Assembly: GCA_010279815.1 (NCBI GenBank)
Contig: QEOQ01000522.1
Coordinates: forward strand, 220,420-284,419
Length of the DNA: 64,000 bases
Origin: Brachionus plicatilis
Lineage: Eukaryota; Rotifera; Eurotatoria; Ploima; Brachionidae
Reading direction: 5' to 3'
Shown piece by piece: positions 48,979 to 64,000 of the stretch. Within the stretch, counting starts at the first letter, position 1; each line of letters starts with the position of its first letter. Both the position numbers and the translations under genes were made by a program. The notes under the pieces were generated by a model. The model saw only the letters and a list, made by a program, of their open reading frames with translations, was not told where the DNA came from and searched no databases.

Positions 48979-49319
48979 GGCATTGTGAATTTTGGTACAA
49001 AAAACAAAAACAAAATATTAAAAATTCAAAAGCTTAAGTTCTGAAGGACCAAAACATGTTCTGCAAATTGTAGCAGCTGATACATCCTTTGTACCACCAT
49101 TTAAAGTTGAATTGGATTTTTAATATAATATAATATCCCAAATTCAACATTTTCTGAGTTCTGCTGATTTATTGCAGAGTTTTGCAGAATCAGTATATTG
49201 GTGGTACAAAAGATGTATCAGCTGCTACAATTTACAGAACATGTTTTGGTCGTTCAGAACTTAATCTTTGGTACTTTTAATATTTTGTTTTTGTTTTTTG
49301 TACCAAATTTCACAATGCC
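48979..49319. mobile_element. MULE-type MITE, complete, 341 bp
   Basis: Long inverted arms of about 130 bp begin GGCATTGTGAATTTTGGTAC and end GTACCAAATTTCACAATGCC. The element is flanked by a perfect 9-bp target duplication GTATTAACA at 48970-48978 and 49320-49328. Long arms with a 9-bp duplication are the mark of Mutator-like elements. The arms share AAAGCTTAAGTTCTGAAGGA-like and TGTATCAGCTGCTACAA sequence with the copies near 39 kb, 44.6 kb and 58.9 kb. It has no coding capacity. Confidence 0.85.
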
Positions 49320-49998: not shown

Positions 49999-50271
49999 CT
50001 AAATGACTTTAATACTGATACCACCCGGCATTCTTTGCACGCACATAATTAAAGACAAATTCTCAATCTTGTAATAGCTCAAACATTTGTCATCATCCAT
50101 CTGTTTTCCAAATGCCAACAAACGATAGTTCTCCACTCTAATTTTACAGTTTAGGTTAATTTTATTTCTCAGATCTTTAACTGTCATTGATTTAAAAACG
50201 GTTTCATCATCAGCCACATCAATAGTTGAACGCATGTTATTTTGAGAGTAGATTTTTACTTGAAAGGACAT
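49999..50271 (-). CDS. Divergent ubiquitin-like modifier precursor
   Basis: Single-exon ORF of 90 aa. It aligns along ubiquitin: MSFQVKIYSQNN matches the first strand, TVKDLRNKI the helix start, and YRLLAFGKQMDDDKCLSYY matches the RLIFAGKQLEDGRTLSDY block, including the Lys48 position. It ends with QRMPGG followed by ISIKVI. Ubiquitin ends RLRGG, so the Gly-Gly is kept but the two residues before it differ. The six-residue extension means that the protein must be cut after Gly-Gly to become conjugatable. Its ATG lies 96 bp beyond the stop of the ubiquitin-specific protease on the same strand, so that protease is the natural candidate for processing. Conjugation is inferred. A stand-alone non-conjugated UBL is possible. 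Confidence 0.8.
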   Translation of the reverse strand: MSFQVKIYSQNNMRSTIDVADDETVFKSMTVKDLRNKINLNCKIRVENYRLLAFGKQMDDDKCLSYYKIENLSLIMCVQRMPGGISIKVI

Positions 50272-50367
50272 TCTTTCTCAAAGTGGTTAAAATAAAAATT
50301 TCAACTTTTTTTTTTTTCTAGAGATTTTTATGCCTCTTTGGATCAAAATAAGCTGAGATAAAATTTT

Positions 50368-50389
50368 TTATAAAAAATATAATAATAGC

Positions 50390-50426
<37 letters not shown>

Positions 50427-53400
50427 TACAAAGCAATGCAAGTGAAAAATTAAATCGTCTTTTTTTTTTTCGTTTACAAAAATCATATTCATGCAAACTT
50501 GATTCCGGGTTCAAACAATCTTTGCCATCACTAGATGTAGTAGATACAGTAGTGTCGCTTTTGCCATCAAGGATATATACTAAAAAAAAGGCGTTTTTCT
50601 AAAATTATTTTTTTTCAAATATAAAAGCATTTTTTTAAAAATCATTTAAATTTACAGTAACAATTGATCCGCCAATGTTGGTCACATTTTCATCGTTAAA
50701 ATTGAACCATTGCTCAGACTTGTCATTTTTTGCATGAGTAGTATCTTTTTTTTCTATTTAATAAAAATTTTCAAATTATAAAAAAAGTACAGTGGCCATT
50801 GTAAAGACTTCCAAAATGGTTTGAAACTGCCACTAGTTCATACTTTGAATATTTTTTTCTATCATTAGTGTACTTGTTCAAATCAATACTAAAATAAAAT
50901 AAAAAACATCAATTTTGATTTTAATTTATTTTTTACTTTTCAAAAAATTCAATGAACTGGTCATTTTTTGTCTTGTTGAAAAAATTGTCACATTGGAACC
51001 GATTTAGCTGAATGATGAAAATTTTCGGCAAGTTGAACAATTGAAATTGTTCTTGTGATTTGGTTTTTCTACAGCAATTTCTACAATAACTATTTATTTA
51101 TTTAAAAAAAAAAATAAAAAAAAATTAATATAATTCAAAATGATAAAACTTTTCAGGTGTATTTGTATGTATGATTTTAAAGTGTTCATTCAGGCAATCA
51201 TGCAAAGTAAGAAAGCAATCGGCATATTTTCTTTTTTTTGAAATTTGATTTTGCACCTCAGGTAAAGGCAGAACTAGGCCGTTGGATAGATCAAATTTAA
51301 CTGATACTTGATTACATTCTAGACATTGTATTTTTTCATAAGTTAATGAGTGAAAAAGTTCAGCAATGAAGCTTTGGTGAGAATTCAAGTAGCATTTCCA
51401 CAAATTTGATCCATGATTCTTTAAAAAAGTTTATTTTCATGATCAAAGATATTTTTTGGTTACCAAAATTTCATTTTGTAAATCTTTGTAATCTATATAA
51501 ACCGCTTTTAAGCTTAAAGTATCTTCAATTTTTTTGTTTTTTAATTCTTCGTGTAAAATATTGAGCACTCGGTCTAAGAATTCGTGCGAATCATTCTGGT
51601 CACAATTTGCGTACATTTCCTCATATGAAATAACACATTCCTTTATTTAAAATTAAAAAGAATGTTTTAAAAATAAAAATTTTATTTTAAAATATTTTAA
51701 GTTAAAATTTAATAAGCTTATTTTTTTGCCTGCAAGCTTTTCTTAATGGAATAAAAAATTTCAATAAAGAATATTTTTTTTAATTTTTTGACGAAAATTT
51801 TTCGTCATTTGTTAATTATTCCCATTTTTTTTTATTCCAGTAGCAATTTTTTCGAAGAATAAATTAAATACCTTTTAAAAAAAACAAATTTAAAAAATAA
51901 ATCAACCCCAATTATTTTTGATCAAATTTGCCGTTTTTACTTAAAATTGAGGAAAAAAAGCAAATTAAAGTTAAATAACAAAAATTTTCAGATAAAATAA
52001 TAATTCATCATTTTAGCAAAACGTCCCAATATAAACAGTAGTATTAAAAACGTCAATTTTTTTACATTTTTAAATATTTATCTGAGAAAATAACTATTGA
52101 GTATTAAAATGAAAGCAATAAATCGCAGAGAAATTCACTTGAATTCAAAAAACAGGTTAAATTTTTCAGTTCTAAATTTTTTAAATATCCGATAATGTTC
52201 ATTGTTTTCAGATAATAAAAATTTAATTAAAAATTTATTTTTAAAATTTGATAAATTCCTAACAAATATTCCAGAATTCAATAGACAAAATATAATTAGT
52301 TTTTAATGTCGACAAATCATTTTGATCAGTAAGGGATATCGATATCAGGCAATAAGAATTTATTTATTTTTAGCGTCATGTCAAAGTCTTTAGAAAATTT
52401 TTTAAATGAAACAGGAAATTGATCATGTAAATATTAAAATTTAAAACTAACTTGTTCATTTCTTTTCCTCGACTTTTCCTTTCCTCACTGGAAGAGTTGG
52501 AGAAGAGTCCAGGAACAAAATACGTACAAGTTAGTTTTAATTTGTACTGTATCTTTAAGCCAATGCATGTTTTTTGTTTTAAATAAATAATCGAAAGGTC
52601 TTTTTTTTCAGATTTAAATAAATTAGTTTGAGCATAATTGAAAATTTATTTTTTAAAACAAAAGTTTTGGTGTTTTTCTGTAGATAAAATTATAGTAAAT
52701 GGCTAAGGAAATATTTCTGGGATTGCTGAATCATTGACTCTTAACAAGACCATTATCATGACAAATCAGAAAAAAAAAACCGACCAAGGCTTTAATTTTT
52801 TTTTGAAAAAAAAAGTCCGGACCTAGACTTTTTTTTTTTTTTAAAGTCCAAGTTTTTTTTTTTTTAGAATATAAAAATAAAAAATCCATTTTTCCTTTTT
52901 TTACAAAAATTAAAATTTACGTTCATTTTCGTCAAAAAATTCAATCAAATTTTAATTTTTTTCCTTTTTCAAAAATTCTAAAAATAATTTTTTTCATTAA
53001 AATCCGTTTTTCTTCGAGAAATTTTGGAATTTTTTTTTAATTGAATTTTACAAGAATTATCGATAATTTACGAAAATTATCGTTATTTTACGAAAAATAC
53101 CCTTTTTTAGATACCATACCATATTTTACGGTAAATATGGTAAAATATCGTGAAATTACCATAATTTACGTAAAATATGGTGAATTCAAGGTATCGTAGC
53201 AGCACTGAAATAAAAAAATAATTTCAGAAGAGTACTAATTTTTCTCTGATATTGAATAGAAGAGATTTTTTCACAGATCAGAGGAAGGCTATTTGGGTCT
53301 TGTACCATTCGTGTCTGATTGGTGGACAATGACCATTATCATGAAAAATCAGAGAGAAAAAACCGACCAAAGACTTTAATTTTTTTTCAAAAATAAAGTC

Positions 53401-54537
53401 CGGACTTAGACTTTTTTTTTTTTAAGTCCAAGTTTTTTTTTTTTAATTTTCATTCAAAGTCCAAAACCTGGCTTTAAAATTTTGAATACTGAAGAAGAAA
53501 TTTATGCAAAAATTGCAAGAAAATTCTGATATATGGCAAATCTTTTGCATTAGACACCCCAAGAGTATATAAATTTTTTGATATGAAGCCTGATCTAGCA
53601 AATTTTAAAACTTGGACTCGGACTTTTTTTCAAAAAAAAAATTTTAAATCAGGATTTGGATTTTTTTTGGGACTTTTAAACAACTCTGCTTAATAATAAA
53701 TAGAATATAATAATAAAAAATCGATTTTTCCTTTTTTCATCTTTTTTTACAAAAATTTACCGAAATTTACGTTCATTTTCGTCAAAAAATTCAATCAAAT
53801 TTTAATTTTTTTCCTTTTTCAAAAATTCTAAAAAAAATTTTTTTCATGAAAATCGTTTTTTTTCGAGAAATTTTGGAATTTTTTTATCACTGAATTTTAC
53901 AATAATTATCTTTATTTTATGAAAAATACCCTTTTTTAGATTACCATATTTTACGTAAAATATGGTGAATTCAAGGTATCGCAGCAGCACTGTAATAAAA
54001 AAATAATTTCAGAAGAGTGCTAATTTTTCTCTGATATTGAATAGAAGAGATTTTTTCACAGATCAGAGGAAGGCTATTTTTTTTATATCAAATTTTAAAT
54101 TTAAAAAGTTTTCAATTATTTTACCCTTAAAAGAGAAGGTGTAATGGCTAATGAATTCTTTGACCATAAATTTTTGAACAAATCACTTAAATGTTTTGAT
54201 AAACTATTGTCATAATTAGCTACAGAGCTAAAATCGGCTGCAATAAAATGGTCTCTAAACTCGGGAATATTGCTTAAGCACTAAAAAAGAATTAAAAAAT
54301 TTTGTTTAAAAAAATATATTAAAAGTAATTTACTTGAAGTGCTGAATTCATAAAACACGTGTTTCCAAGATTAGCCAAACCATTTGTGCCAGGAATTTTA
54401 TTTTTTTCAAATTCCAATACACTCCGATCAATATCACTTAATTCATTTTTTTTAGGCAAAATTTAATTTTTTTCTAAATCATACATTTTGCCATAGATTG
54501 GATTATTTCTATTTGCTTTTGAGCGTTTTCTCTTCAT
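50368..54537 (-). CDS. Ubiquitin-specific protease (C19) with poly-Leu tail anchor
   Basis: Nine exons rebuilt by hand: 54537-54485, 54436-54334, 54280-54125, 51640-51464, 51418-51150, 51089-50937, 50888-50791, 50744-50656, 50598-50368. The sum is 1329 nt, 442 aa, with every phase consistent. USP boxes in order: Cys box GLANLGNTCFMNSALQ, CDQNDSHEFLDRVLN (QQDxHEFL equivalent), finger pair CLEC and later CRNC, FIIQLNRF (LKRF equivalent), SNHFGSLYNGHYTTHAKN (His box), WFNFND, and a closing NAFFLVYIL. A C-terminal extension ends in a basic stretch (CKRKKKRR), then FNFSLALLCN plus 15 leucines and YFL, a likely tail anchor. Intron 3 (about 2.5 kb) holds repeats. Intron 1 is only 48 nt and contains a TAA. 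If it is not spliced, the gene would be broken. The start is 131 bp from the divergent RBR gene. Confidence 0.82.
50381..50424. repeat. (TTA)n microsatellite coding for leucines
   Basis: On the minus strand there are eleven TTA codons in a row followed by TTG, CTA, TTA and TTA. All are in frame with the last USP exon and encode 15 leucines. The repeat is likely to vary in length between individuals, always in steps of whole codons. Confidence 0.85.
52430..52549. mobile_element. Tc1/mariner-type MITE, second copy
   Basis: It shares TTCTTTTCCTCGACTTTTCC and the GGAAGAGTTGGAGAAGAG centre with the copy at 16397-16523 and ends TTTGTACTG before TA. The left tip has diverged. It lies in intron 3 of the USP gene. 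Confidence 0.6.
52748..54080. repeat. Tandem segmental duplication inside USP intron 3
   Basis: Unit 1 (52748-53294) and unit 2 (53331-54080) share GACCATTATCATGA, AACCGACCAA, TTCATTTTCGTCAAAAAATT, GGTGAATTCAAGGTATCG, and the closing ACAGATCAGAGGAAGGCTAT. Unit 2 is longer because it keeps the centre of a hAT MITE (53380-53688) that is reduced in unit 1 (52782-52865). Confidence 0.75.
53380..53688. mobile_element. hAT MITE with full centre (copy C)
   Basis: The centre matches copy B at 17735-17890 closely (GAATACTGAAGAAGAAATTT ... GATATGAAGCCTGATC) and the right end AAACAACTCTG is intact. The left end is altered, so no target duplication is readable. Confidence 0.65.
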
Positions 54538-54668
54538 TTCTAAAAAATTCAAAATAAATTTCACTCCAATTCTAAGCATTCAATTTTATATTTATTGACT
54601 AAGGATAAGTCGAATATGTAAAAATAGATTTTTGAATTTATATGAATTTATTTTTGGAAAAATTTAAA
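54538..54668. promoter_or_regulatory. Shared divergent promoter of the USP and RBR genes
   Basis: Only 131 bp separate the USP start (minus) from the RBR start (plus), so both promoters and 5' UTRs must lie here. The stretch is AT-rich, with ATTGACTAAGGATAAGTCG near its middle. No defined regulatory motif can be assigned. Confidence 0.5.
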
Positions 54669-55427
54669 ATGGCTGAAAAATTTTATGATCCAAAAATCCA
54701 CAAAAATTTGAATTTGTCTAAAAAAAGCGATGAAATAGCTCATTTAGACATTGGCGAATATACAGCTCTACTTTCATGTGGACATGCTTGTGATCCAAAT
54801 TCTCTCACTGGATGGTGTGAATCAATTCTAAATGATGGAAGGACAAACTTTACATGTCCAGTTAAAGACTGTAATCAAGAGTGGTCCTATGATGAAGTAA
54901 GACGAGTTGCCTTGTTGACCCAGGACGAAAGACTTGATTTTGAAACTAAATTGTACAACAACTTTGCCAATAGTGGTTGTATCAAGCCATGTCCAAAGTG
55001 TGAAAAATTTATTCTAAGAGAAGATAGTAATAATAAAATTCAATGTTTAAATTGTAGCAATAAGCGTCAAATTTTCCATTTTTGTTGGCAATGTGAACAG
55101 AAATGGTTGGACATGGGTTCAAATGTAAGATGTGGAAATAATGTTTGCCATAGTTATGAAGAAGAAGCTTTGAAAAATTGTGAATTCATTTATTTGGCTA
55201 GTTGTCCAAAATTGGGGAAGATTCCGAGTGTTAGAGCTTGTCCATCATGTGATAAACTTTTGGAACACGATGGACATGGTTGTAAGAACATAACTTGTAA
55301 CAAATGCCAAGTCGAGTTTTGTTTTGCATGTTTAGAAACAACAAAAGTATGTCAAAGGTTAAAAAATGGATACTATGATGAATGTTTAAAGCCAATAGCT
55401 CCTATCCAGACCAGAAGTCTTAATTAA
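54669..55427 (+). CDS. RBR-type E3 ubiquitin/UBL ligase
   Basis: Single-exon gene. I chose the ATG at 54669 (AAAATGG context, MAEKFYDP), giving 252 aa; an in-frame ATG at 54642 would add nine residues. A RING1-like region keeps LSCGHACDPNSLTGWC and CPVKDCNQEWSY but lacks the first Cys pair of a classical RING. An IBR zinc region follows (KPCPKCEKFI, CLNCSN, FHFCWQCEQKW, CGNNVCH). RING2 is complete: RACPSCDKLLEHDGHGCKNI then CNKCQVEFCFACLE. The Cys of HGC aligns with the catalytic Cys of RBR ligases such as Parkin, so the enzyme should form a thioester with its modifier. No UBA, Ariadne or other targeting domain is present. Its head-to-head USP neighbour and the nearby UBL suggest that it may act with that UBL. 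Confidence 0.83.
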   Translation: MAEKFYDPKIHKNLNLSKKSDEIAHLDIGEYTALLSCGHACDPNSLTGWCESILNDGRTNFTCPVKDCNQEWSYDEVRRVALLTQDERLDFETKLYNNFANSGCIKPCPKCEKFILREDSNNKIQCLNCSNKRQIFHFCWQCEQKWLDMGSNVRCGNNVCHSYEEEALKNCEFIYLASCPKLGKIPSVRACPSCDKLLEHDGHGCKNITCNKCQVEFCFACLETTKVCQRLKNGYYDECLKPIAPIQTRSLN

Positions 55428-59797: not shown

Positions 59798-62700
59798 TTA
59801 AGTTCTGAAGGCAATATTTAATGGAATCGCAAATTCCATTTTTACTCTTTTCAAAATCTTCTTTTTTAATTCTCTTTCTTTTTTTATAAGATTTTCTTTG
59901 GTAATTTGGTCACTTGATCCAAGAATTTCTCTAAGCTCTTTGATGAACGCGCTTTCATCATTTACCTTTAGTTCTTTCTTTCGAAAAACTTTTTCCGTAT
60001 AATCATTTTCAATTATTCTTTTCCCAAAGTTAAGTTTCAATTTCTGTATTTTTGAGTCAACGGGTTCTATGTTTAATTCATACAATAGGTTAGTAGTTCG
60101 AGATCTCTTTTCGAGTGACAGGGTTTGTTTAATCATTAAGCCTTCCATAGTTTGTAGTTTCCTCATTTTGCATTTGCTAATTTTGCAGTTTTCTAGGCCG
60201 TAATAGGTTATAGGTCTAATATAAGTTTTAAAAAGGTGTGCTTTTAAAAACGGGCTAATTTGGTTACTATACATGTCTAGATTATTTTTTAGGAGGTAAA
60301 AAGCTCTCCATGTGCTCAGTCTTCTTTCTCTTAGATGTTCTTTACTGTAACATTTTGAATCAATCAAGACTCCTAAGTATTTCATTTTTTTTACCCACTC
60401 AATTTCCTCACCACATAGTTCAAGCTTTACTTCGTCTTTCTTTGAGCCATTTATTCGCATAATTTGAGTTTTAGATGGGTTAAATTTAATTTCGGTTCTT
60501 AGCCCATAGTCCTCGCACAATCTAAGGATTTTTTTCATTTTTTTAGTACAGTCAGTCATGATTAATAGGTCGTCTGCGTACATTAATACACCAGTTTTTA
60601 TACCATCAATTTCTGATATTAAATTTGTGTTCATTATTTCTTCTATTAGTTCTTCCACATAAATTGAGAATAGCTTTGGCGAGAGTGGGCCACCTTGCTT
60701 CACTCCTACCGTGGTTTTAAACATTGAAGATATTTCATCTTTTTTTTGAACAAACACTAATGAGTTTTGATAATAATTTTTGAGTATTCTCCATATTTCT
60801 GGTTCTACTTTACCTATTAATTTTTCCATCATAATTTCTCGTGTGACTTTATCAAACGCTTTGCTAGCATCAATTGCACAAATAAATAATTTCTTTTTTC
60901 TAGTTTTATAGTGTTGAATAGTTTCTGATAAAGTGTAAATACCATGGTTAGTCGAACTCTTTGTTTTAAAGCCAAATTGTGTTTGTGGATCATGATGAGT
61001 TTCATTCAATCTATGCAGGATGTACTTTTCAAACACATTGCTAATTGTATCTGATATTGTTATTGGTCTGAGGTTGTTGATATCATTTGTAGGACCTTCA
61101 TCCTTCTTCAATATCGGGACTATTTTACCTACATTAAAAAAAAAAGGGATTTCGTTAAACTTAATCATTGTTTCAAGGACTATAGCTAGTATTTCAGTCA
61201 ATTCGTCTAAACATCCATATTTAAACAACTCATTGTACAAGTCTCCAAATCCAACTGATTTGCCGTTTGGGAGCTCTTCTAGAATCCGTCTAATTGTCTG
61301 TCTCTCAACTTTAATGAGGTCTGTCTTTAGCGATTCATTAATTTCTCTTTCATATTTTCGGACTTTATTTAATACATCATTTATATTGTTATTTCTACTT
61401 TCAAGATTCCTTTCGTTAAATAGTTTTTCAAAATTTTCTTTAAGCTCATTTATGCTGACATTTATATTTCCATTCTGTTTTTTTCTTCTTCTCATTTCTT
61501 TCCAAAAACTGTCTCTATTCGCATGAAAGAGCGCGTCAATTCGTTTTAAGGTACTGTTTTCTACTAACTTTGCTTTATCTCTTTGTTTTGATCTAAATTT
61601 ATTCTTGGTTATTCTAAGTTGATTTTCTAATTCTACAGATTCGTAGTTTGTTGCCTTCCAATTAAGGTACGATTTATTCACGTTTTTCTTCAGAATTTCC
61701 ATTTCATCATCCCACCATTTTTTCTTTTTTATATGCTTGTTAAGATTTTTTTGTTTTTTTTGTCCATGAGTTAATAATTCATCAATTGTTTCTCTCATGG
61801 CGCTGCCTAATTCATTTATTATAACAGTGCTATTCAACTTAGGGTTTGTTTCATTTATTAAATTAAGATTCGAGAAGATTTCTTTTTTCCTCAATTTTTG
61901 TTTTAATAGGTTAGCGTATTCCATCTGAGTCATGACGTCAAGCCAATTGATTTTCGTTTTAGGTCTATTTTTTTTAATCCTATCTTCAATTTTATTACCG
62001 ATTTTAACATTTTTAAGGTCGATTTTGATTGCGTAATGGTCACTGGTATTTGACTGATGCTCAAGTCCGCTCAGAATGTTAATTTGTTCAACTTTATCAG
62101 TTAAGAATTCATTTGCCAGCACATGATCAATTCTACTTTTTCCAAGAGTTTCCGGTTGAGTTATTTCATTTGGATTTTTGTCTAGTTCAGTTTTATTTTT
62201 CTTTTTCTGTTTGAAGGTATGGTCAGTGCTTTGACAAAAAATATGATCAGTAGCGATGAGGTTCTCAGACTCAATAAAAGCGTTTAGTATTTCAGTAAAG
62301 TTTGATTTACGATTGAGATCGGTATTAAAATCACCTAAAATACATATATTCGCCTCTGTTTTTTCGCGGTAGATTTTATCAATGAGGTTTGTGATTTGAC
62401 CTATGAGTGCTTCAAACTTTACAACCGAATCAGCCGGACCTTCGAAATTCATGTATACACCTATAAGGTAAGTGTTGTTTATTTGGCAGAGTGATATTCG
62501 GTCTGATACAAATTCTATATTTGCGATTTTATGTATTTCTTTTTTTATCGGCCAGCCAGTGCCACCATGTGGACGTCCAACTGAATACTCAGGGGCCATT
62601 GAAGATTTGTGTATGAATTTGAAATCTTTGTTTAGTAATTGGTTCCCTTGTTTAGACGTTTTTAACCAAGTTTCTTGTAAAAAAATGATATCTGTGTGAT

Positions 62701-63052
62701 TTGTGAGTTCGTTAACGAAATTAAAGTTTCCTAATAAGTTTTTACAATTAAGTGTACATATGCTAAGCGTATAATTTTGTTTTTCTTCTTGGTTAGTTAT
62801 TAATGGTTGTTGTGTGAATGGGATCATTTCTGGCAATGGTGTCGATTGGGAGTAATTAGGATTATTGGGAGTTGGTTGTGGTTGTTTTGGTTCTAATATA
62901 GTTTCTGATGATTGAATGATATATTGAGATTTTAGTTGCTGGTAACTGTTTGGTATTTGGTTTAATCTTTTTGTTTGATTTTTAGGATTAATTTCTATTA
63001 GAATGCTATCATTTCTTGGAATTTTGCTCTCTTCAAATGGGGGGTATTCCAG
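59798..63052 (-). CDS. LINE ORF2: AP-like endonuclease plus reverse transcriptase
   Basis: The frame is open from directly after the ORF1 stop (63052) to the stop at 59800-59798. The first ATG in frame is at about 62827, giving about 1009 aa; counted from the ORF1 stop it is 1084 codons. The EEP endonuclease has LSICTLNCKNL, FLQETW, ILGDFNTDLN, SRIDHVLANE and TSDHYAIKID. The reverse transcriptase has IVPILKKDEG, NNLRPITI, FICAIDASKAFDKV, GVKQGGPLSP and MYADDLLIM with the catalytic Asp pair. A C-terminal thumb region and a small C-x-x-x-C patch (ENCKISKCK) follow. No RNase H is present. The clade cannot be fixed by eye; a CR1/L2-like affinity is likely. The product would nick DNA and prime reverse transcription of the element RNA. 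Confidence 0.9.
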   Translation of the reverse strand: MEYPPFEESKIPRNDSILIEINPKNQTKRLNQIPNSYQQLKSQYIIQSSETILEPKQPQPTPNNPNYSQSTPLPEMIPFTQQPLITNQEEKQNYTLSICTLNCKNLLGNFNFVNELTNHTDIIFLQETWLKTSKQGNQLLNKDFKFIHKSSMAPEYSVGRPHGGTGWPIKKEIHKIANIEFVSDRISLCQINNTYLIGVYMNFEGPADSVVKFEALIGQITNLIDKIYREKTEANICILGDFNTDLNRKSNFTEILNAFIESENLIATDHIFCQSTDHTFKQKKKNKTELDKNPNEITQPETLGKSRIDHVLANEFLTDKVEQINILSGLEHQSNTSDHYAIKIDLKNVKIGNKIEDRIKKNRPKTKINWLDVMTQMEYANLLKQKLRKKEIFSNLNLINETNPKLNSTVIINELGSAMRETIDELLTHGQKKQKNLNKHIKKKKWWDDEMEILKKNVNKSYLNWKATNYESVELENQLRITKNKFRSKQRDKAKLVENSTLKRIDALFHANRDSFWKEMRRRKKQNGNINVSINELKENFEKLFNERNLESRNNNINDVLNKVRKYEREINESLKTDLIKVERQTIRRILEELPNGKSVGFGDLYNELFKYGCLDELTEILAIVLETMIKFNEIPFFFNVGKIVPILKKDEGPTNDINNLRPITISDTISNVFEKYILHRLNETHHDPQTQFGFKTKSSTNHGIYTLSETIQHYKTRKKKLFICAIDASKAFDKVTREIMMEKLIGKVEPEIWRILKNYYQNSLVFVQKKDEISSMFKTTVGVKQGGPLSPKLFSIYVEELIEEIMNTNLISEIDGIKTGVLMYADDLLIMTDCTKKMKKILRLCEDYGLRTEIKFNPSKTQIMRINGSKKDEVKLELCGEEIEWVKKMKYLGVLIDSKCYSKEHLRERRLSTWRAFYLLKNNLDMYSNQISPFLKAHLFKTYIRPITYYGLENCKISKCKMRKLQTMEGLMIKQTLSLEKRSRTTNLLYELNIEPVDSKIQKLKLNFGKRIIENDYTEKVFRKKELKVNDESAFIKELREILGSSDQITKENLIKKERELKKKILKRVKMEFAIPLNIAFRT

Positions 63053-63928
63053 TCAATGATGCAAAGCAGCTTGAGGATCAGGTTTTTTTATTCTCTTAAC
63101 TGTGTTGTTTCTTATTGCCCAACGAAATTCACTTTTTTCTCCTTCTTGTTCGTTTTTTGTCCTTCTTTCATCTCTTAATATTTTTTGTTCGAGTCTTTCA
63201 GCTGGAGTTAGATCTTGATTGACAAAAACGTTTTTAAAATTTTCTTTTTTTCTTAATTCTTTTGATTGCTTAAGCATCTGGAACTTAGTTTGTTCTGAGT
63301 CCATTTTGATTAGGATTGGTGCTGGTTTTGCATTTTCATGCTTTGATTTTAGACGGGTGACATTTTTTACCTTGCTTTTGTCTATTTTCATTAAGTCTAA
63401 AATTTCTAAAATTTTATCATCGTCGTATTTCTTTTTATCTTTTTCTTCCGTTTGCTTTGACTCTTCTATCCCTACTATTACAATATTATTTTTTCTTTTT
63501 TCTCGTTCATTTAGTTCGTTGGAAAAAGCGGAAATGGCTTCAGCTGCTTCGATTTTTTGCAAAGTTTTTTCTTTTGGTTCTATTGTTGCATCGTTTTCTG
63601 CTTGTTTTTTAAACAAGGATGACCAATTCATTTTTGGTCTTTCTGTTCGATCAATTTTCTGGTTAAGCATTTGCACCAATTCTCTTAGTTTTTTATTTTC
63701 ATCAACTAGTCCTTCAATTAACTTATCTTGTTCATCTTGATGTTCAAGAATGACCATCAGTAGATCATAAGGATCTTTTTTTTGAGACTTGTTTTTTCCG
63801 ATCAGTTCTTCTTCAATTTTTCTTTTATTGTTCTTGCTTCTTTGGTATTTGTCTGTTTCAATCTTTTTTAGTTGGGAAAGACCGTTTTCGATGTTGGATT
63901 GGTCAATTTCCATTTGGTTTCCACTCAT
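63053..63928 (-). CDS. LINE ORF1: coiled-coil RNA-binding protein
   Basis: Protein of 291 aa. The N-terminal half is charged and rich in heptad-like leucines (LVDENKKLRELVQMLNQKID), a probable trimerising coiled coil. The C-terminal half contains KNNIVIVGIEES, KVKNVTRLKSKH and KNVFVNQDLTPAERLEQKIL, the pattern seen in ORF1 proteins of several LINE clades that use an RRM-like nucleic-acid-binding fold. It ends PDPQAALHH at a TGA (63055-63053). The ORF2 frame continues directly in the same phase. It should coat the element RNA. Confidence 0.8.
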   Translation of the reverse strand: MSGNQMEIDQSNIENGLSQLKKIETDKYQRSKNNKRKIEEELIGKNKSQKKDPYDLLMVILEHQDEQDKLIEGLVDENKKLRELVQMLNQKIDRTERPKMNWSSLFKKQAENDATIEPKEKTLQKIEAAEAISAFSNELNEREKRKNNIVIVGIEESKQTEEKDKKKYDDDKILEILDLMKIDKSKVKNVTRLKSKHENAKPAPILIKMDSEQTKFQMLKQSKELRKKENFKNVFVNQDLTPAERLEQKILRDERRTKNEQEGEKSEFRWAIRNNTVKRIKKPDPQAALHH

Positions 63929-64000
63929 TATTTATCTGCGAGAGTTTTTTCTTTAGAGTTGAGACTGCGTGCTTTTTGACGTTTCAAATTAATTTTCAAA

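Follow-up and report, generated by a model that had tools for sequence, protein, structure and literature searches.

Three genes of the ubiquitin system adjoin in the rotifer Brachionus plicatilis, encoding a small ubiquitin-like protein (UBL), a USP-class protease and an RBR-type E3 ligase, and the question they raise is whether this order reflects a common pathway or chance. All three lie inside 5.4 kb of the window (the whole 64,000-nucleotide stretch analysed here, part of contig C69 in an AT-rich genome of 103 Mb and 173 contigs), with the RBR on the plus strand and both USP and UBL on the minus strand. The initial annotation had placed modifier, protease and ligase side by side, the USP and RBR head to head with 131 bp between starts and the UBL 96 bp behind the USP on the same strand. 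We found each gene at its claimed position and confirmed the families by Pfam (ubiquitin, UCH, IBR_1 and IBR); the 96-bp spacing is exact, and the 131 bp hold with the RBR start at its second methionine (54669), shrinking to 104 bp if counted from the first ATG. Since other organisms often make the tag and the attaching enzyme as a single fusion protein, the pairing of these two genes is probably functional and not chance. The features are:

49999..50271, minus strand: stand-alone UBL, 90 residues, beta-grasp, one open reading frame (Pfam ubiquitin, 37.9 bits)
50002..50019, minus strand: six-residue tail ISIKVI behind the Gly-Gly, read from the sequence
50272..50367, minus strand: 96-bp spacer from USP stop to UBL start
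54537-50368, minus strand: USP protease, nine exons, catalytic boxes intact
54485..54537, minus strand: USP exon 1, start codon
54334..54436, minus strand: USP exon 2, Cys box GLANLGNTCFMNSALQ
54125..54280, minus strand: USP exon 3
51641..54124, minus strand: USP intron 3, 2,484 nt, containing two dispersed-repeat copies
51464..51640, minus strand: USP exon 4, QNDSHEFL box
51150..51418, minus strand: USP exon 5, CLEC zinc pair
50937..51089, minus strand: USP exon 6, YCRNC zinc pair
50791..50888, minus strand: USP exon 7
50656..50744, minus strand: USP exon 8, which joined to exon 7 completes the His box NHFGSLYNGHYTTHAKND
50368..50598, minus strand: USP exon 9, closing part of the catalytic domain, followed by KRKKKRRF and a hydrophobic poly-Leu tail
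54538..54668, no strand: 131-bp divergent interval from USP start to conserved RBR start
54669..55427, plus strand: RBR-type E3, single exon, 252 residues from the second methionine, start conserved

Elsewhere the window holds kinase-myosin, FAST-kinase-like, mitochondrial carrier, glycosyltransferase 8 and MFS genes, and its GC content per kilobase ranges from 16 to 45%.

The spliced USP reads through 442 codons without a stop across eight GT-AG introns, seven of 45-60 nt and one of 2,484 nt; splice sites were chosen by eye, that of the 48-nt intron 1 being the least certain. The protein carries GNTCFMNS and NHFGSLYNGHYT and matches Pfam UCH at 204 bits, with positions 2-254 of the 254-position profile covered; the domain is complete. 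Its C-terminus (50368-50475) consists of a basic patch and a long hydrophobic stretch that derives from a TTA microsatellite; the 19-residue hydropathy reaches 3.35 there and nowhere exceeds 1.16 ahead of residue 400. This poly-Leu tail behind KRKKKRRF would suit a tail anchor, but being a TTA repeat translated as leucine it may be accidental.

The UBL ends in RMPGG followed by ISIKVI, and its AlphaFold model (mean pLDDT 86.7) matches NEDD8 and ubiquitin in Foldseek (best E 2.7e-7), giving it both the predicted beta-grasp fold and the C-terminal Gly-Gly of a type I modifier. If it matures as such a modifier does, ISIKVI would be cut off, and the UBL may then be conjugated. Nine other UBL matches in the genome, whose reading frames we inspected, include ubiquitins and a Rad23-type protein, but nothing resembling another copy of the window UBL. 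Two diverged ubiquitin copies (L011, C79:110650; L015, C79:127009) share a contig at a distance of about 16 kb, and in one of them the matched stretch contains a stop. Because a protein search with the UBL as query returned no candidate, the evidence for its kinship comes from the fused proteins described below.

By its sequence the ligase is RBR-type, in diverged form. The reading frame is open over 54642-55427 (plus strand) with a first ATG at 54642, and we placed the start at 54669 because several short relatives start at the second methionine. Pfam IBR_1 (36.7 bits) and IBR (28.1 bits) both score above cut-off, and the AlphaFold model (mean pLDDT 91.9) finds ARIH2 (1.9e-8), parkin (5.0e-8) and HHARI in Foldseek, with TM scores of only 0.14-0.41 among the first 43 matches, as expected if the RBR domains are arranged differently. 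RING2 reads C200-x2-C203-x10-C214-x4-C219-x2-C222-x4-C227-x2-C230, numbered (C214 included) from the ATG at 54642. A protein search with the RBR gave 14 matches, and their alignment gave 242, of which the best 120 were taken (7,996 candidates scored), yielding a set of 123 relatives among the matches listed. The nearest include P0004 of Brachionus calyciflorus (54% identity over 84%). The first CxxC pair of RING1, sought within 45 residues upstream of CGH, is absent in 120 of the 123 relatives listed, and the CxxC matches of the other three fall in the last strand of a UBL. RING1 keeps one zinc site where two complete ones would be usual, and C46, H48, C72 and C77 are invariant in a 51-row alignment.

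The active site is odd throughout the family. Among the relatives listed, 120 have a readable RING2, and none of these carries the usual His two positions past the catalytic Cys; the site holds Asn (80), Tyr (26), Phe (13) or Thr (1), and a His lies a few residues before the Cys in 119, with Arg in the last. The pattern is unmatched in P0014, which ends before RING2, and in P0105 and P0119, which by eye show His before and Asn after the RING2 Cys. The genome's Ariadne-like L020 has the usual RING2 His, as a single control. According to an excerpt of PMC9527308, most RBRs carry this His and HOIL-1 uniquely has Trp; HOIL-1 thus resembles the window family in lacking the common catalytic His, but the latter has Asn, Tyr or Phe in nearly all members listed and a His 4-5 residues before the Cys. 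An RBR family of this kind bears on how RBRs choose between lysine and hydroxyl targets.

The link between UBL and RBR comes from fusions. A UBL lies N-terminal to the RBR in 34 of the 123 relatives listed, with 36 UBL segments in total. P0015 and P0016 have two segments ahead of the RBR, the second in P0015 lacking a stretch, and the long N-termini of P0045 and P0105 were excluded as not UBL. Pfam ubiquitin is listed for 19 of the 34 (among the matches listed); of the other 15, ten have matches below the cut-off (E <=0.1), nine to Pfam ubiquitin and one to a different UBL profile, and for P0010, P0012, P0025, P0029 and P0101, which match no profile, the UBL was judged by alignment alone. P0017 and P0019 are near-copies. 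Eleven of the 34 fused relatives listed have GG and a linker before the RBR, the layout of a cleavable precursor, the ends being RLPGG, RMPGG, RVPGG, RVHGG, RMKGG, RLLGG, RLHGG and QLRGG. The remaining 23 lack GG, and in every one the last UBL strand runs into an xK-x-Y/F motif, a loose pattern, that opens the RBR part. The window RBR starts at the point where a fused UBL ends. Fusions such as P0104, P0110 and P0111 share the UBL subfamily and RBR family of the window, but they form one polypeptide, whereas the window has separate UBL and RBR genes on opposite strands with the USP in between. Taken together, these comparisons make the UBL-RBR linkage well supported.

To place the window UBL, we built family HMMs without it from all fused segments, from the no-GG forms and from the GG forms (a shuffle control reached about 6 bits as the best of 200). 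It fits the fused-UBL subfamily clearly by the no-GG model (54.0 bits, against 34.4 for genome ubiquitin, 28.6 for the genome's Rad23-type UBL and 22.2 for NEDD8) and slightly by the all-segment model (60.8 against 56.5 for genome ubiquitin, a lead of only 4 bits), but not by the GG model, where genome ubiquitin (57.3) stands above it (40.5). By these scores its nearest kin are fused UBLs of the no-GG kind, although it bears GG itself. BLASTP with the window UBL was weak (P0009, E 2e-4; the UBL part of P0010, E 0.86), and the top P0010 match (E 0.75) fell outside its UBL part. In its predicted fold the window UBL shares the family's Phe-bearing extra helix (residues 23-28, ahead of the main helix), at a site where family members have a nearly invariant Phe (15 rows aligned); of the 36 fused segments, 29 agree with a rough Phe/Leu pattern for this helix, and genome ubiquitin does not. 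P0110 likewise has RMPGG at the end of its fused UBL. The Arg that ubiquitin has at position 72, a UBA1 determinant, is kept in 10 of the 11 GG forms and in the window UBL.

A quick-method tree of 60 RBR domains (61 chosen from the 123, P0041 dropped for want of a CGH match) groups the window RBR with P0002 and P0004 (support 98). Around it stands a group of nine rows (99), of which P0091 and P0101 are fused, both without GG, within a 32-row group (98) in which 22 members are UBL-fused. Since the window RBR sits in a fused-dominated group, the split genes are most simply read as fission of a fused gene; some of the short environmental relatives could be incomplete. For the root we used the GG forms, which no single branch separates from the rest, and the exact branching order is tentative, with weak support for the root and several forks (84 for the fork nesting the nine-row group deeper, 92-94 for basal forks).

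The reading we favour, and hold tentatively, is that the locus is a small UBL-conjugation cassette that arose when a UBL-RBR fusion gene underwent fission. The UBL would be made as a precursor and ISIKVI trimmed to expose RMPGG, most likely by the neighbouring USP; an E1 of UBA1 type and an E2, with genes elsewhere, would load the mature UBL; the RBR would take the UBL, or ubiquitin under UBL control, onto its RING2 Cys and pass it to a target; and the USP would reverse the conjugation. Fission, UBL conjugation, the E1 and E2, USP specificity and co-expression are the parts of this cassette that we infer. We claim no dedicated E1, because E1_UFD (PF09358) has one strong match in the genome and one weaker match that bears stops. 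The weaker one (G000:C4:599216-599551, two stops inside) may belong to a second UBA1-like E1 with an intron, or be a remnant. Against this reading, 23 of the 34 fused relatives listed lack GG, both fused members of the nine-row group among them, so that much of the family cannot conjugate its UBL through GG; the window UBL would have retained or regained a GG that was lost elsewhere.

A longer history is a more doubtful proposition: an ancestral cleavable UBL-GG-RBR precursor may have been locked as a fusion in some lineages and split here as UBL-USP-RBR, with the His-less RBR perhaps using the upstream His or non-lysine targets. No UBL-GG-RBR precursor family was found in the excerpts of open-licence literature searched; an excerpt of PMC11354881 describes fusions of ubiquitin with ribosomal and other proteins as well as clustered bacterial systems, and one of PMC4327156 the wider ubiquitin toolkit. 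The bacterial BilABCD operons likewise cluster UBL and deconjugating-protease genes, but as excerpted in PMC11354881 they carry homologues of E1 and E2, and their protease is of the JAB/JAMM kind, where the window has an RBR and a USP. Vertebrate RBRs named 'DDB_G0292642-like' (si:ch211-212k18.15 in fish) belong to the same RBR family with a like RING2 motif (13 named rows aligned, 38-46% identity to the window RBR); these entries show no Pfam ubiquitin among the matches listed, whereas the window has its UBL as a neighbouring gene. A full-text search of open-licence literature for DDB_G0292642 returned no paper. If the favoured cassette is real, the few UBL systems of eukaryotes would gain a dedicated modifier-ligase pair, which would hint at the original purpose of this widespread vertebrate RBR.

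Parkin, built as UBL-RING0-RBR, suggests an unlikely but serious alternative, in which the UBL is a regulator in trans that docks on the RBR and switches it while staying unconjugated, the RBR using ordinary ubiquitin. Parkin too pairs a UBL with an RBR ligase and is a Foldseek match, and the no-GG fused majority, running straight into xK-x-Y/F, has the parkin-type layout. Against this, the window UBL ends in R-x-x-GG with a short tail, and the GG and linker of the other 11 fused relatives listed would be needless in a pure docking domain. The window genes differ from parkin further in their separate UBL ending in GG, in a 252-residue ligase without room for RING0, in a RING1 without the first Cys pair and in a RING2 without the His two after the Cys. 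With cleavable, permanently fused and split layouts in one family, the choice between modifier and regulator is directly testable.

It is distinctly unlikely, in our estimate, that UBL and RBR are partners and the USP a chance neighbour acting as a general ubiquitin protease. The USP family is large in this genome (48 exon-level matches), the best PDB matches of this member are USP4 (5.5e-53), USP15 and USP11, no UCH domain occurs in the Pfam annotation of the 120 RBR relatives listed (proteins of limited length), and we found no fusion or second neighbourhood tying in a USP. Its position between both partners, at 96 and 131 bp, nevertheless speaks against chance at roughly 1e-4 trios; the rough expectation of about 3e-5 to 1.3e-4, uncorrected for looking, assumes 30 USPs, 20 UBLs and 10,000-20,000 genes and uses 11 RBR matches. 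That the USP processes the window UBL stays a conjecture drawn from the locus. ISG15, USP18 and HERC5 form a dedicated trio of modifier, USP-class protease and E3, ISG15 having two UBL domains and HERC5 being a HECT ligase; for the window trio no immune link was found. The initial annotation had proposed shared function for all three genes. This held up for the UBL and RBR, through fused homologues of which 11 of 34 listed have a GG junction, and did not for the USP, whose tie is adjacency and the residues behind the UBL's GG.

That three ubiquitin-system genes merely coincide without a common pathway is very improbable. B. plicatilis UTRs average 52 and 94 nt in an excerpt of PMC1925144, and compact spacing is ordinary if UTRs are this short, which makes close spacing alone weak evidence; the fused homologues, however, unite this UBL subfamily with this RBR subfamily. 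The family assignments and the tight packing noted at the outset were right. An operon with a spliced leader was set aside, as the literature speaks against it: excerpts report no trans-spliced leader seen in B. plicatilis ESTs (PMC1925144) and no operons reported in rotifers (PMC7986045).

A mobile, selfish or virus-derived module is barely credible, and the earlier idea of ISG15-like immunity or a selfish element went unsupported: although reverse-transcriptase ORFs flank both sides and USP intron 3 holds a high-copy repeat, the USP gene is interrupted by eight introns, a search of the 103-Mb genome gave no further close copy of the UBL or of this RBR subfamily, a repeat listing for 46-60 kb showed, at its settings, no terminal repeats around the cluster, and viral origin was rejected after one scan of viral contigs for RBR relatives confirmed none of 379 pattern matches. 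The intron copies (52748-53294 and 53331-54079) belong to a dispersed repeat with at least 74 matches (40 of 1,518 first-look candidates scored). At 59801-63931 (minus strand) runs a long retroelement ORF with reverse transcriptase and endonuclease domains, accompanied by an upstream ORF. Past the UBL end, 48979-49319 forms a foldback element, a 121-nt inverted repeat that is 93% complementary with 99 nt between its arms.
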